Below, piece by piece: positions 282-41,885 of a stretch of 41,885 nucleotides of DNA. Each line of letters begins with the position of its first letter. Position 1 is the first letter of the stretch. A model generated the notes under the pieces. That model was not told the DNA's origin, ran no database searches, and saw only the letters and a list, made by a program, of their open reading frames with translations. Source of the DNA: Proteobacteria bacterium CG1_02_64_396 (lineage in GTDB: Bacteria > Pseudomonadota > MNWR01 > CG1-02-64-396); NCBI GenBank assembly GCA_001872725.1, contig MNWR01000020.1, positions 1 to 41,885 on the forward strand, read 5' to 3'. The position numbers and the translations under genes are program-made.

Positions 282-1340
282 TTAGAATGGGTACTCAACC
301 CCAATTCCCATCGACCCGTCAGCGGTCACCATCGGGGCCAGCCGCAGCGCGTCCCACCCCTGGGGCGCATCGCGCCGGATCCCCGCCGCCCGGTTGGCAG
401 AATGGGCCTCAATCGCGCGCCCCCGCGCCACGGCAACCTTGCCGAAGCCGTACCCCATGGCGATGGCCAGGGGGTAATCGCTGGCCCAGTGCACCCCGTT
501 GTTCATCATCTGAAACGAAAGCAGCCCCAGCAGCGTCCAGCCCAGCGGTTGAACGAAGGTATATTCGGGGTAGTTCTCGGCGATCACGGTGACGGTCATA
601 ACCCCGGTGGCCAAATGACCGGAGGGGAAGGCGTCGAAGCTGGGGACGTGTTGGTGGTAATCGATCTGATTGGGGAAAAAGCGCCACACCCCCCCACCCT
701 GGGTCGCCCGAATGGGACTCTCGCGTCCGGTGATGTGTTTCAAGGTTTGAGTGGCGAAGGCAGTGGTCATCAGCCCCTCGACCAGCTCCGAGCCGGTCCT
801 CAGGGCGCGGGAATCCTCGCCGAAGTAACCGTAGCCCAAAAAACCGAGGGCAAAGCTGGAGTGAAGCCAGCCGTCGCCAATGAAGTACATCGCCGAGCCA
901 ACATCGGAGGGGCCCCGAATCGGTTGGCCAAAAATGCTGAAATAGGGCTTGGTGTTGTCTTTGTTGCCTATGCCCCAGCGCCGCCCCAGATTCTGGGCGC
1001 CGTTGATGAGCTTCTGGTCGTAATAGATCAACACCCCGGTCGAAAGCACCACCGCCCCCCAGTAGGGGATCGCCTCCTCCTGCATCGCCTTGTCCCAAAG
1101 GGCGACGTAATCGCCGGGGAATCGCCACATGAAGTCCCAAAACTCGGGATTGTGGTACACCAAATCTGTATCGCCCCCCACCGTCGGCACCGTGTAGCGA
1201 TGGGCAGGACTGGCGCTCGGCGGGGTCTGCCAGGGCAGATCGTCCGGGACGGTCCAATCGACGACGGGGGGGATGGGGTCGGCATGGACCCACAGGGGCC
1301 AAACCGCTAACAGGAGCACGGCCACAAAGCGAGGAAGCAC
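282..1340 (-). CDS. exported PAP2-superfamily phosphatase
   Basis: This 352-residue protein starts with an N-terminal signal peptide (about residues 1-20, cleavage near VHA-DP). The three parts of the PAP2 acid phosphatase active site are visible: K201 to R206 in KHITGRESP, PSGH at 239-242, and GVHWASDYP with H284 and D288. The core is hydrophobic with several likely membrane segments. Such proteins hydrolyse phosphate monoesters or diphosphates of lipids, for example undecaprenyl diphosphate, phosphatidate or lipid A; the substrate cannot be told here. The start is GTG with AAGGA nine bases upstream. The protein ends in phenylalanine. It is a lone gene followed immediately by an inverted-repeat element. 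Confidence 0.85.
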   Translation of the reverse strand: MLPRFVAVLLLAVWPLWVHADPIPPVVDWTVPDDLPWQTPPSASPAHRYTVPTVGGDTDLVYHNPEFWDFMWRFPGDYVALWDKAMQEEAIPYWGAVVLSTGVLIYYDQKLINGAQNLGRRWGIGNKDNTKPYFSIFGQPIRGPSDVGSAMYFIGDGWLHSSFALGFLGYGYFGEDSRALRTGSELVEGLMTTAFATQTLKHITGRESPIRATQGGGVWRFFPNQIDYHQHVPSFDAFPSGHLATGVMTVTVIAENYPEYTFVQPLGWTLLGLLSFQMMNNGVHWASDYPLAIAMGYGFGKVAVARGRAIEAHSANRAAGIRRDAPQGWDALRLAPMVTADGSMGIGVEYPF

Positions 1341-1503
1341 GACGCAAATCCTTTAAATCTATAGAAGAAACGCCCAAAAGACGGGGGATTGTGCGCATCC
1401 TCGCCCCGACGCGCTACCCGCACCCGGTTTGGGACCGTTGATCGGCCATCGCGCACCTGGTCGGAATTTCTACCTGAACCCTCACACGGCCAAAAAACTT
1501 TCT

Positions 1504-1655
1504 AAGGAAGCGCCGATTTATCAGCGCTTCCGAGCGGCCCAGGGATGGTCCGCCAAAATCAGGAACGTAAGTGACTGATTTTTCAAGCGAAGCAAAAACG
1601 ACACTTTTTGTAGCGTGCCGATTAATAGGCAGGAGCCTTTAATCGGCACTTCCCT
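1504..1655 (+). repeat. palindromic intergenic repeat, copy 1
   Basis: This ~152-bp unit also occurs inverted at 15574-15729. Both copies share AACGTAAGTGACTGATTTT exactly and are alike along their whole length. The ends are imperfect inverted repeats (AAGGAAGCGCCGATT at left; AGGGAAGTGCCGATT read inward from the right). Three hairpins can be drawn: GGAAGCGC/GCGCTTCC near 1505-1532, AAAATCAG/CTGATTTT near 1555-1583, and TGCCGATT/AATCGGCA near 1616-1649. It sits in the 402-bp gap between the phosphatase and HD-GYP genes. The remainder of that gap (1341-1503 and 1656-1742) holds no gene I can see, only the upstream regions of the two genes. Confidence 0.8.
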
Positions 1656-1742
1656 AAATCGGCCCAAGGGGCATTGAATCGTCCCCCGACCCGAGTCAGG
1701 GTTCCCCTCTCGCAGGTCAACGTTGGATGCATGGAGACCATC

Positions 1743-2897
1743 ATGCCCACCTCTCACACTGAAGACCTATTTTGCCACAACGACGAGCTCGGCCCCCTGG
1801 GGGAGGCGATTCCCTTGGCCGAAAAGCTGGCGGTGATCCATCGTTCCCTCGACCGACAGGTCGGCTGCATCAGCCGGATCGCCGTGGCCGCCTACGATCA
1901 AGCCACCGAATCGGTGCGGACGTTTCTTTCGAGCGACCGGGGTGCCCCCTCCCCCATCCAGCATTACGAAATCCCCTTGAGCCAAGCCCCTTCGCTGGCC
2001 GAGGTGGCCCAGCTCAGGCGGCCCAGGGTGGTCAACGATCTGGCGCTCTTTCAAGCCAGTACCCACCAACACACCCAACGCATCCTGGCCCAGGGGTATC
2101 AGTCCAGCTACACCTCCCCCATCCTTTTTCAGGGTGATCTGCACGGGTTTGTCTTTTTTAATGCCGAACAACAAACCGCCTTCAATGATCGGGTGTTGCC
2201 AACCCTCGATCTAGCCAGCCACCTGATCGCCAACCTAGCCCAACAAGAGATCGGGTTCTTCCACACCCTCTCGGCCGCCCTGAAAACCCTGTACGAGATC
2301 TCGACCCTGCGCGACCTGGAAACCTCAGGCCATCTTGAGCGGATGGGTCGCTATGCCCGCTTGATCGCCCGCGATCTGGCCGAGCGGGGGATCCACGACT
2401 TCAGCGACGAGCACATCGAGCGGATCTACCGCTTCGCACCCTTCCACGACATCGGCAAAATCGGCATCCCCGACCACATTCTGTTCAAACCGGGCAAGCT
2501 CGACCCCGAGGAGTGGAGCCACATGCAGCAACACACCACCATTGGAGGGCAAATCCTAGGAAAAATGGTCGATTACTTCGGCTTCAGCGCCTTGGACGGG
2601 CTCGACGTTCTGCGCTCGGTCGCTGAGCTGCATCACGAGGCGCTGGATGGCTCGGGTTACCCCTTTGGATTGGCAGGGGAAGAGATCCCCATCGAGGTCC
2701 GTATCATCACGGTCTCCGATATCTTCGACGCCCTGACCTCCCAACGTCCCTACAAAACCGCCTGGGATATCGACACCGCCTTCACCGTGCTCGACGCCAT
2801 GGCCAAAGACAAACTCGATCACGAATGTGTTGGCTCGCTGCGGCGTCAAACCGAGCAGATCGTGTTGATTCAGCAGCATTTTGTGGATCGTAGCTGA
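1743..2897 (+). CDS. GAF-like sensor plus HD-GYP domain protein, probable c-di-GMP phosphodiesterase
   Basis: The 384-residue protein has an N-terminal GAF-like region (about 20-170) and a C-terminal HD-GYP domain. The HD pair is at residues 235-236 in FHDIGKIGIPDHIL, and the second signature, HHEALDGSGYPFGL, lies near 295-308. HD-GYP proteins hydrolyse the second messenger c-di-GMP to pGpG or GMP; both signature motifs are intact, so activity is likely. No transmembrane segment is visible, so it is probably cytosolic. I chose the ATG at 1743 because GGAG lies six bases upstream; in-frame TTG (1674) and ATG (1731) starts have poorer sites. It is one of only two plus-strand genes here and is followed by a strong terminator. 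The signal sensed by the GAF part is unknown. Confidence 0.9.
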   Translation: MPTSHTEDLFCHNDELGPLGEAIPLAEKLAVIHRSLDRQVGCISRIAVAAYDQATESVRTFLSSDRGAPSPIQHYEIPLSQAPSLAEVAQLRRPRVVNDLALFQASTHQHTQRILAQGYQSSYTSPILFQGDLHGFVFFNAEQQTAFNDRVLPTLDLASHLIANLAQQEIGFFHTLSAALKTLYEISTLRDLETSGHLERMGRYARLIARDLAERGIHDFSDEHIERIYRFAPFHDIGKIGIPDHILFKPGKLDPEEWSHMQQHTTIGGQILGKMVDYFGFSALDGLDVLRSVAELHHEALDGSGYPFGLAGEEIPIEVRIITVSDIFDALTSQRPYKTAWDIDTAFTVLDAMAKDKLDHECVGSLRRQTEQIVLIQQHFVDRS

Positions 2898-2914
2898 CCT
2901 GCCTGCTGCCAACG

Positions 2915-2958
2915 GCAACCGTAAAAAAACCGCCCATCGGGCGGTTTTTTACGGTTGC
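2915..2958. terminator. bidirectional Rho-independent terminator
   Basis: A long perfect hairpin, GCAACCGTAAAAAAACCGCCC / GGGCGGTTTTTTACGGTTGC, has A and T runs built into the stem. It lies between the converging HD-GYP gene (+) and SRPBCC gene (-) and can end transcription from both sides. Confidence 0.9.
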
Positions 2959-2971
2959 AGAAACATCTGCC

Positions 2972-3643
2972 TCAAGGGTTGGCGGTCGAGGCGGTTGCAC
3001 GCCGTTCCTCTTGCCAGAGCGCCTCGACCCGGGTCCGGGTTTTATCCATCACCTCGGGGACGCTGCGGGTGCTCAAAAAATCGACGATCCAACCAAACCC
3101 CCACGGCACATCGCCCGGATCGGAGGCGACGTGGTAGACCGCCAGGGTGGCATCGGGGTGATTTTGAGCCGGTTTCAGACTCCAAAAGCCGGTGGTGTCG
3201 CGGATGGTTTCGGCGGGATCGAGCCCAGGCCATGGGATCAAACGCCAAACCAAGGTCGATTCCGCATCGCCGCGCCGCACGACCATCTCTAGCCGGTACC
3301 GTTTGGTTTTGCCCAGGGGCAACGCCAGGGTGTAGTTGGCGATCACCCGGTCGCCGCTGTTTTCCAGCACCTCGACCTTGGCGACATGGGGCATGAATTC
3401 GCTGCACCGTGCATGGTCGGTGAGGACCTCAAGCATTGTCGAAACCGGGGCGTGGATGATTCCCACCGACTCGGCAGCCCGCACATGGGGATTGCCCGAA
3501 TCCAGGGGGCGGAGCACCACCTTGCCGTGATCGAGCTGATTCCATTCATCGGCAGACAGGGGGGCATACTGGGCAACAGGCAAGGGGGAGGCGGCGGCAA
3601 CGCCCGCTATCCACAGCCCAAATACAACCATCAAAACACGCAT
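2972..3643 (-). CDS. exported SRPBCC/START-like domain protein
   Basis: The 223-residue protein has a signal peptide (about 1-18, MRVLMVVFGLWIAGVAAAS), so it is predicted periplasmic. The rest resembles the START/polyketide-cyclase (SRPBCC) hydrophobic-pocket fold, with elements such as IIHAPVSTMLEVLTDHARCSEFMPHV, a central set of beta strands, and a C-terminal helix ending VMDKTRTRVEALW. Members bind lipids or other hydrophobic ligands; no ligand can be assigned. It is a single gene between a terminator and bioF, with a plausible AAGGCGG site before the ATG. Confidence 0.7.
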   Translation of the reverse strand: MRVLMVVFGLWIAGVAAASPLPVAQYAPLSADEWNQLDHGKVVLRPLDSGNPHVRAAESVGIIHAPVSTMLEVLTDHARCSEFMPHVAKVEVLENSGDRVIANYTLALPLGKTKRYRLEMVVRRGDAESTLVWRLIPWPGLDPAETIRDTTGFWSLKPAQNHPDATLAVYHVASDPGDVPWGFGWIVDFLSTRSVPEVMDKTRTRVEALWQEERRATASTANP

Positions 3644-36478: not shown

Positions 36479-36553
36479 TGGTAGGCACGGGCGGTTTCGA
36501 ACCGCCGACCTCTACCGTGTCAAGGTAGCGCTCTCCCACTGAGCTACGCGCCT
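36479..36553 (-). tRNA. tRNA-Val (anticodon GAC)
   Basis: The 75-base gene starts AGGCGCGTAGCTCAGTGG and ends with encoded CCA. The anticodon stem CTACC/GGTAG encloses TTGACAC (anticodon GAC). The T arm is GGCGGTTCGAAACCGCC. The acceptor pairs AGGCGCG with CGTGCCT (one G-U). Confidence 0.96.
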
Positions 36554-36668: not shown

Positions 36669-36744
36669 TGGTGGGCGAAACAGGGTTCGAACCTGTGACC
36701 CCCGGCTTGTAAGGCCGGTGCTCTCCCGGCTGAGCTATTCGCCC
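36669..36744 (-). tRNA. tRNA-Val (anticodon UAC)
   Basis: The 76-base gene starts GGGCGAATAGCTCAGCC and ends with encoded CCA. The anticodon stem CCGGC/GCCGG encloses CTTACAA (anticodon TAC in DNA). The T arm is ACAGGTTCGAACCTGT. It lies 26 bases after hupB. Confidence 0.97.
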
Positions 36745-36770: not shown

Positions 36771-37046
36771 TCAGCCGTTCAGGCGATCCTTCAAACCCTT
36801 ACCCTGCTTGAAGCGAACCGACTTGCTCGATTCAATTTGAATCTTGTCGCCGGTCGCAGGATTCCGGCCCTCCCGAGCTGCGCGCTCGGTCACTGAAAAC
36901 GTCCCAAAACCAACTAGGTGGACCGATCCGCCCTGAGCCAACGCCTCTTCCACAGAGGCCACCACTGCATCAACCGCGCGACCGGCCTCGGCTTTCGTCA
37001 TCCCAGCCTTTTCAGCCACGCGCTCAATTAACTGGCTTTTGTTCAT
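36771..37046 (-). CDS. hupB: DNA-binding protein HU-beta
   Basis: The 91-residue nucleoid protein starts MNKSQLIERVAEKAGMTKAE; the DNA-binding arm is GRNPATGDKIQIESSKSVRF. I chose the ATG at 37046, which has GGGGGAG right before it and matches the family's ~90 residues; 13 further upstream codons are not HU-like. clpP-clpX-lon-hupB is a widespread proteobacterial order. Confidence 0.96.
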   Translation of the reverse strand: MNKSQLIERVAEKAGMTKAEAGRAVDAVVASVEEALAQGGSVHLVGFGTFSVTERAAREGRNPATGDKIQIESSKSVRFKQGKGLKDRLNG

Positions 37047-37083
37047 TACTCCCCCCTTGGGTATAAGTTGATATTGAGAACGC

Positions 37084-37100
37084 ACGGGGGCGGTCCCCGT
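37084..37100 (-). terminator. short hairpin between lon and hupB
   Basis: On minus, ACGGGGACCGCCCCCGT followed by GCGTTCTC. There is no clear U-run, so termination is uncertain; it lies 20 bases after the lon stop. Confidence 0.35.
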
Positions 37101-37119: not shown

Positions 37120-39567
<2,448 letters not shown>

Positions 39568-39612
39568 ATGCACCTCTAGGTTGCGCTACTGGACGGTGCC
39601 TTTTAGATAAGG

Positions 39613-39635: not shown

Positions 39636-40886
39636 TCACGATGCGCTCGCCATGTCTTGAACCAAGATCAAAAGCGGCTCCGCCCCCTCTTCGATGACTT
39701 CACGATTGATAAGCGCTTCTCGCACGTCTGTTCGGGATGGGACCGCATACATCAAGTCGAGCATGACCTCTTCCATGATCGCCCGAAGCCCGCGCGCTCC
39801 GGTCCTCCTGGACATTGCCTTGCGGGCAACTGCTCGAACCGCATCATCTGTGAACTTCAACTCAACCCCTTCAATTTCAAAGAGTTTTTGGTATTGCTTG
39901 ATTAAGGCGTTCTTTGGTTTTGTTAAAATCTCAACCATGGTCTCTTCTGTGAGACTGTCGAGCGTCGCAACCATCGGAAGACGCCCAACCAATTCCGGTA
40001 TGAGTCCAAATTTCAAAAGATCGTCAGGTTCTACATCTGAAAAATAATCCAGCGCCGCATCGTCCGTGTCTTTATTCGATATTTCAGCGGAGAAACCCAT
40101 TCCACCTGGTTTTTGCCGCCGTTGAATGATTTTTTCTAGTCCTGAAAACGCTCCGCCACAAATAAACAGAATATTCTCGGTGTTTATTTGTATAAACTCC
40201 TGGGCTGGATGTTTGCGCCCACCTTGCGGCGGCACAGCTGCAACGGTTCCCTCAATCAATTTTAATAGTGCCTGCTGCACCCCTTCTCCCGACACATCGC
40301 GGGTAATCGACGGGTTATCGCTTTTCCTTCCTATCTTGTCGATTTCATCAATATACACGATTCCTTGCTCAGCCTTGTGAACATCGAATTCGCAAGACTG
40401 AAGCAATTTAAGCAAGATATTCTCGACATCTTCACCAACATAACCGGCTTCAGTTAAGGTCGTTGCATCGGCAATCGTAAAGGGAACGTTTAACAATCTC
40501 GCCAAGGTTTGGGCTAACAACGTTTTACCCGAACCTGACGGCCCAACAAGGAGGATATTACTTTTTGCCAACTCGACATCGTCCATGACCCCACCAAAGC
40601 GAATTCGCTTGTAATGATTATGGACGGCAACGGCAAGAATTTTTCTTGCGCGTTCTTGGCCAATAACATACTGGCCGAGGTAGTCATATATATCTTTGGG
40701 GGGGGGGATTTCTTCGGAGTGATCAATCAGATCCTTTTTGCGTTCGTCCTTTAAAATCTGGTTACACAAGTCGACACATTCATTGCAGATACGCACAGTC
40801 GACCCGGCAACCATGCGCTCCACTTCCTGCGTGGTTTTACCACAAAAACTGCAATATTGAGTTGTTTGATTATTATTAGATGACAT
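39636..40886 (-). CDS. clpX: ATP-dependent Clp protease unfoldase ClpX
   Basis: The 416-residue protein has an N-terminal zinc domain with Cys12, Cys15, Cys34 and Cys37; an AAA+ module with Walker A GPSGSGKT (115-122) and Walker [12 protein letters not shown]; and the ClpP-docking IGF-like loop region plus C-terminal small domain. It unfolds tagged proteins and feeds them into ClpP, encoded 30 bases upstream in the same direction. Confidence 0.97.
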
Positions 40887-40916: not shown

Positions 40917-41540
40917 CTATTTTTCAGGATATTCCAGATTTTCTCGATGGGTTAAAACCGAATCTACCAGACCATACTCCACTGCTTCGTTGGCATCCAA
41001 GAAGTAGTCCCTCTCTGTATCGCGTTCGATCCGTTTGAGTGACTGCCCGGTTCTCTCACTCAACGTCTTGTTGAGTTTATCTTTTATTTTAAGGATTTCT
41101 CGGGCATGAATTTGAATATCGGTTGCTTGCCCCTGGAATCCGCCAAGGGGCTGGTGGATCATGACCCGACTGTTTGGCAATGCCGCTCGTTTTCCCTTGG
41201 CGCCAGCAGCCAGCAAAAATGCCCCCATTGAGGCGGCCTGACCGACACATAATGTGGCAACATCAGGACGAATAAACTGCATCGTATCGAAGATCGCCAG
41301 GCCCGCCGTTACAACACCCCCAGGACTATTGATATACAGATAAATATCTTTCTTGGGGTTATCCGCTTCCAAAAAAAGAAGCTGTGCAACAACGAGATTG
41401 GCGGTTTGGTCGTTAATCGGGCCCACCAAGAAAATAATACGCTCCTTAAGCAAACGAGAATAGATATCGAACGCCCGTTCACCTCTGTGGGTCTGCTCCA
41501 CAACCATTGGAACAAGTCCAAGCGCGTGCTCAGCAATCAT
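40917..41540 (-). CDS. clpP: ATP-dependent Clp protease proteolytic subunit
   Basis: The 207-residue self-compartmentalising serine protease has its catalytic triad visible: Ser104 in GQAASMGAF, His129 in VMIHQPLGG, Asp178 in DTERDYFL. The first residues before LVPMVVEQ are probably a short propeptide. GAGG precedes the ATG. Only about 50 bases separate the start from the end of an IS3-family element, so the native upstream region may have been replaced. Confidence 0.97.
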
Positions 41541-41551
41541 TACGACCTCTT

Positions 41552-41577
41552 TTTGGGGGTATATCTATAATCTTCAA
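41552..41577 (-). promoter_or_regulatory. possible heat-shock-type promoter before clpP
   Basis: On minus, ATTGAAG then 12 bases then CCCCCAAA, loosely like the sigma-32 pattern CTTGAAA / CCCCATNT. The spacing is one base or more short and the -10 match is partial. The start site would leave only a very short leader. Confidence 0.25.
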
Positions 41578-41591
41578 TGCTGTTGCTGGGG

Positions 41592-41885
41592 TGGACCCCA
41601 CTCCTTGGACAGTTTGGGGGCGAAAATTTGTAAACGGTTAGTGGCGGTGGGTGGTTCCGCCGTGGGTTTGATGGACCTGTTCTGGGGTCTTGCCGCCGAG
41701 GGCACTGTGGGGGCGCTCGGTGTTGTAAAACCGGAAGTAGCGGTCGAGCCCCTGGTGCAGCGCCACCCCATCGGCATGGTCGTACAGGTAGATCTCTTCG
41801 TACTTCACCGTGCGCCACAAACGTTCGATGAAGACGTTGTCCAGCGCCCGGCCCCGTCCGTCCATGCTGATGAGAATCTGTTGTT
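41592..41885 (-). mobile_element. IS3-family insertion sequence, 3' end, cut by the window
   Basis: The element enters from the right edge. Its likely end is TGGACCCCACTCCTTGGACA, read on plus from about 41592, matching the TG...CA-type ends of IS3-family elements. It includes the C-terminus of the transposase. The other end and the 3-4 bp target duplication are outside or not testable here. Confidence 0.75.
41638..41885 (-). CDS. IS3-family transposase OrfB, C-terminal part
   Basis: The visible ~82 residues are the end of the rve-type DDE integrase domain. ISMDGRGRALDNVFIERLWR contains the final catalytic glutamate (IE), followed by YFRFYNTERPHSALGGKTPE, the typical OrfB tail. The frame continues off the window's right edge without an upstream stop. 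The visible portion is not frameshifted. Confidence 0.92.
   Translation of the reverse strand, partial: QQILISMDGRGRALDNVFIERLWRTVKYEEIYLYDHADGVALHQGLDRYFRFYNTERPHSALGGKTPEQVHQTHGGTTHRH

Follow-up and report, generated by a model that had tools for sequence, protein, structure and literature searches.

An IS3-family insertion sequence end upstream of clpP in the assembly of Proteobacteria bacterium CG1_02_64_396, in which tig is not found

The clpP neighbourhood in Pseudomonadota and in this genome

In the tig-clpP-clpX-lon cluster of Pseudomonadota, the trigger factor gene tig is the neighbour of clpP in a conserved gene order, as passages of a published account describe (PMC7804408). Among the 39 nearest genomes in our comparison, all related to the present one at phylum level only, 38 carry tig and clpP on one contig and strand, with tig upstream: no more than 1.54 kb in 35 of these genomes, and no more than 2.9 kb in three more, separates the end of the Trigger_N match from the clpP match, and the gap between the two reading frames ranges from -4 to 528 bp in the 20 relatives examined closely. 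The first-pass annotation of this DNA had expected tig ahead of clpP and had proposed a comparison with relatives; with the order conserved both in these phylum-level relatives and in print, that expectation was right, and just one of the 39 (G003), in which tig and clpP lie on separate contigs, lacks tig nearby. In another relative (G021, locus L192) the tig frame, at 1280-3046 on the minus strand, is 589 aa long, has a C-terminus that sets it apart from the rest of the tig proteins and stops 20 bp short of clpP, perhaps reflecting a frameshift or assembly error. The open frames upstream of tig in the 20 relatives, which are unannotated, vary between genomes in position, length and strand, and therefore give no handle on the other side of the insertion described below.

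The window, by which we mean the whole 41,885-nucleotide stretch of DNA analysed here, is one complete contig (G000:C20:1-41885) of a 2.94-Mb genome in 109 contigs, with a completeness of 98.48% and a contamination of 0.19%; the DNA to its right is therefore an assembly gap and not visible sequence. Leftward from the window's right end follow clpP, clpX, lon and an HU gene (Table 1), which keep the order and strand of the Pseudomonadota cluster. Where this locus differs is ahead of clpP: a same-strand tig is not encountered directly upstream on the contig, the end of an insertion sequence (IS) stands at the place where tig would be expected to end, the contig itself ends 299 bases further on, and the assembly as a whole has no tig. 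ClpP shows 72-79% identity to its counterparts in the best 80 loci, with none above 79% among the matches listed, a list from which near records may be missing. Between the HU gene and thrS lie two tRNA-Val genes (36479-36553 and 36669-36744, minus strand) with anticodons GAC and TAC.

Table 1. Features at the right end of the window
Feature	Coordinates	Strand	Size	Match or content
HU (hup-type) gene	36771..37085	-		PF00216, E=2e-34; longest open frame, GTG start
lon	37120..39573	-	817 aa	PF02190, PF05362
clpX	39636..40886	-	416 aa	PF06689, PF07724, PF10431
clpP	40917..41540	-	207 aa	PF00574, E=4e-88
Spacer between IS end and clpP	41541..41586	-	46 bp	AGAGG, then five bases, then ATG
Right (3') end of IS3-family element	41587..41885	-	299 bp present	cut by contig end
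Terminal inverted repeat of IS right end	41587-41613			TGGGGTGGACCCCACTCCTTGGACAGT
OrfB transposase C-terminus	41638..41883	-	81 aa	PF13683 (rve_3), E=9.5e-17

An IS3-family end in front of clpP

Elements of the IS3 family use a programmed -1 frameshift between OrfA and OrfB and make a short target duplication, of 3-5 bp. Ahead of clpP, the terminus TGGGGTGGACCCC begins at 41587, 46 bp (41541-41586) from the ATG, and transposase and clpP are co-oriented. An IS3-family end about 50 bp from the clpP start had been noticed in the first-pass annotation; the observation holds, the type of element being given by PF13683 and the same end recurring across the genome, with 27 occurrences counting the clpP copy. 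Identity between the last 81 aa of OrfB and the 15 best plasmid rows is 55-65%; nine of these rows have an IS3-family transposase annotated beneath the match and six have nothing annotated there. The DNVFIERLW motif of OrfB presumably holds the last acidic residue of the DDE triad.

The element resembles members of the IS3 family carrying annotations such as ISPpu29 and ISGxy1 in several respects. Its OrfA has a helix-turn-helix of the HTH_Tnp_1 type (PF01527), found at the left ends of this IS, its OrfB C-terminus has rve_3 (PF13683), its inverted ends are related (TG..GTGGACCCCA), and a 3-bp duplication is backed by the pairing of ends described below. The terminal inverted repeats start with TG and end with CA (left TGAAGTGGACCCCAAAAACTGGACAGT, right TGGGGTGGACCCCACTCCTTGGACAGT). 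It differs from these elements in its 55-65% identity to the 15 best plasmid rows and in that its centre is absent from the assembly: the assembly yields only the C-terminal part (PF13683) of the OrfB rve (DDE) core, the OrfA/OrfB overlap was not found in it, and HTH_21 (PF13276), a domain of the centre that is present in all three homologous transposases tested, has no match in the genome.

The right end is repeated across the genome, the 26 rows other than the clpP copy showing 99-100% identity over 95-306 bases, and its presence beside clpP is thus not a matter of chance. The left end TGAAGTGGACCCCAAAAACTGGACAGT, together with the start of OrfA (PF01527), occurs at 26 places; of the 17 PF01527 matches in the genome, 14 fall at left ends of this IS. 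The longest pieces seen of the two ends measure 294 and 302 bases, and by analogy with three homologous elements, whose anchor distances we used, the full IS would be about 1.28 kb long. At C29:93537, C96:27452 and C106:19322 (L147, L140 and L139), a 147-bp left end abuts the right end of a further copy: one IS copy inserted into another, an arrangement present at three different flanks. A one-base deletion in orfA occurs in 6 of the 16 left ends (out of 26) that cover the site (L143, L154, L155, L156, L158 and L159, on contigs C56, C99, C90, C63 and, twice, C5), so that a share of the IS copies may have a broken orfA.

A target duplication of 3 bp emerges from the flanks: left-end partners exist for 14 of 25 right ends, against a chance mean of 8.0 (p=0.0035; 15 shifted offsets gave 5-11 pairs), leaving 11 of the 25 without a partner. 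The triplet adjoining the IS on the clpP side is GCA, read in IS orientation, and is the presumed duplication; it has no partner among the 25 distinct left-end flanks. For the clpP copy, the lack of a partner means that the other side of the insertion has been left out of the assembly, has been removed, or retains an IS remnant too short to find. No left-end remnant of at least 8 bases was present at the starts of the 64 further contigs examined, and a left end with only a few IS bases would escape the left-end search; the remnant search also gave one 8-base match to the right IS end (L205), which may be chance. The element beside clpP is best read as an IS3-family insertion of the ordinary kind. 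A literature search for insertion sequence together with "upstream of clpP" found no paper.

The spacer and transcription of clpP

The insertion left the ribosome-binding site of clpP, AGAGG, in place within the 46-bp spacer. It is possible that the IS separated tig from clpP and that it removed the native promoter or supplied an outward one. The corresponding reading for expression, that clpP has lost its native promoter and is driven from the IS, through either an outward promoter or transcription continuing out of the transposase gene, is compatible with every account of tig given below, and on the sequence evidence we think it rather unlikely. The two genes share one orientation and 41300-41885 yielded no terminator-like site, so that transcription entering from the IS could reach clpP; against this, the same interval contains no sigma-70 promoter-like site on either strand, and a sigma-32-like box kept within the 46 bp means that a native promoter core could remain.

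That box, TTGAAG-N13-CCCCAA, is weak. Its score was reached by 14 of 2000 base shuffles, which used the spacer plus one IS base (47 bases) and a motif picked after the sequence had been read, and the looser pattern TTGAAN{11,16}CCCCA occurs four times in the window against 1.0 expected, a count reached by 2 of 100 shuffles. The -10 part of the box ends 12 bases before the ATG, so that a transcript from it would, by our reckoning, have just a few leader bases and lack the AGAGG site. Boxes that equal or exceed its score, at 10 or 11 of 12, are found in 4 of 20 relatives, at other distances. We thus regard the putative sigma-32 site ahead of clpP as a weak lead and nothing beyond that.

The missing tig

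Trigger_N (PF05697) has no match anywhere in this genome, and a profile built from 19 full-length tig rows finds nothing in it at E<=10; as a control, the profile recovered tig in all 19 relatives outside the alignment that have a Trigger_N match. A Trigger_C match at C69:7960 (20.3 bits, cut-off 22.7) falls in the N-terminal region of SurA, and an FKBP match at C13:4358 belongs to an FkpA/Mip-type protein; we rejected both as tig. Among 395 other genomes of the phylum, a sample taken from a larger group, 392 have Trigger_N, and the tig profile likewise finds none in the three exceptions, two of which are 1.0-1.2 Mb in size while the third (G105) is 95% complete in 330 contigs. Other members of the family to which G105 belongs (f5) do have tig.

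The contig stops at the IS because the IS end is a repeat, present at 27 places with the clpP copy. The assembly also has no contig shorter than 5 kb: the minimum of the 106 lengths examined is 5278 bp, and the remaining three are longer than 33 kb, as judged from where their matches lie. A truncated-exponential fit to the lengths predicts about 28 contigs below 5 kb, and a fit to the six contigs bounded on both sides by this IS (5.3-18.4 kb) predicts about ten more such segments below 5 kb, though both fits are rough and the second rests on those six contigs. Close to the cut, the lengths and the fitted curve disagree, with 5 contigs at 5-7.5 kb versus 22 at 7.5-10 kb, and fewer short contigs may therefore be missing. 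The 11 right ends without a partner are of the same order as the number of missing IS-to-IS segments that the fit gives. In metagenome-derived genomes, according to PMC7605220, repeats and mobile-element genes often remain unbinned; the genome studied here may be such a bin or an isolate. Because the assembly has no contigs below 5 kb, lacks the centre of the IS and shows no left end flanked by GCA, the absence of tig from it is probably not biology.

We therefore favour, with good though not full confidence, a reading in which the IS landed between tig and clpP and the assembly lacks a piece of less than 5 kb that carries tig. A multicopy IS3-family element, of about 1.28 kb by analogy, would have inserted 46 bp upstream of clpP, co-oriented with it, where tig normally ends; the assembler, unable to cross the repeat, stopped the contig inside the IS; and the DNA beyond, most likely carrying tig, would sit on a segment shorter than 5 kb, bounded by this IS and a further repeat. 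In an assembly without contigs of that size, tig then looks absent. clpP, keeping its own ribosome-binding site, could be served by a promoter core surviving in those 46 bp or by transcription running in from the co-oriented IS. Several points weigh against this reading: no tig-carrying piece was seen, the presence of tig being something we infer, completeness is given as 98.48%, an IS-adjacent deletion would leave an unpaired GCA as well, and the estimates of missing short contigs are rough.

The main alternative is that tig has truly been lost, the IS having landed in or near it and a deletion adjacent to the IS, or recombination between two copies, having removed tig and left the IS end beside clpP. 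The empty Trigger_N and tig-profile searches, with their control, and the assignment of the sole sub-threshold Trigger_C match and the sole FKBP match to other proteins are as such a loss would have it, and so is the GCA flank without a partner, which is also expected after IS-adjacent deletion or recombination between copies. On the other side stand the rarity of genomes without tig (3 of 395 others in the phylum sample, two of them small and one in 330 contigs) and the lack of both contigs below 5 kb and the IS centre from the assembly. We accordingly judge true loss to be improbable, and more doubtful still is the loss of trigger factor from a 2.9-Mb bacterium by a deletion next to the IS that kept the IS ahead of clpPX; a dropped short segment is, in our estimation, several times likelier than loss. 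That tig resides elsewhere in this lineage, never having stood ahead of clpP, and was independently dropped from the assembly has a parallel in G003 but runs against the 38 of 39 relatives that keep it upstream of clpP and the order given in passages of PMC7804408, and is very improbable.

With tig placed by preference on a short segment missing from the assembly, we conclude that the junction represents an ordinary IS3-family insertion at an otherwise conserved site, combined with an assembly gap. It serves mainly as a caution: where an assembly is rich in IS copies and has no short contigs, the loss of a conserved gene beside a repeat can be only apparent. ClpXP and trigger factor cooperate, as stated in PMC7804408. 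Were the loss true, this organism would therefore offer a natural case of how ClpXP and the other chaperones cope without trigger factor, and its tig deletion would be a natural one in a genome unlike the reduced ones that lacked tig in the phylum sample.
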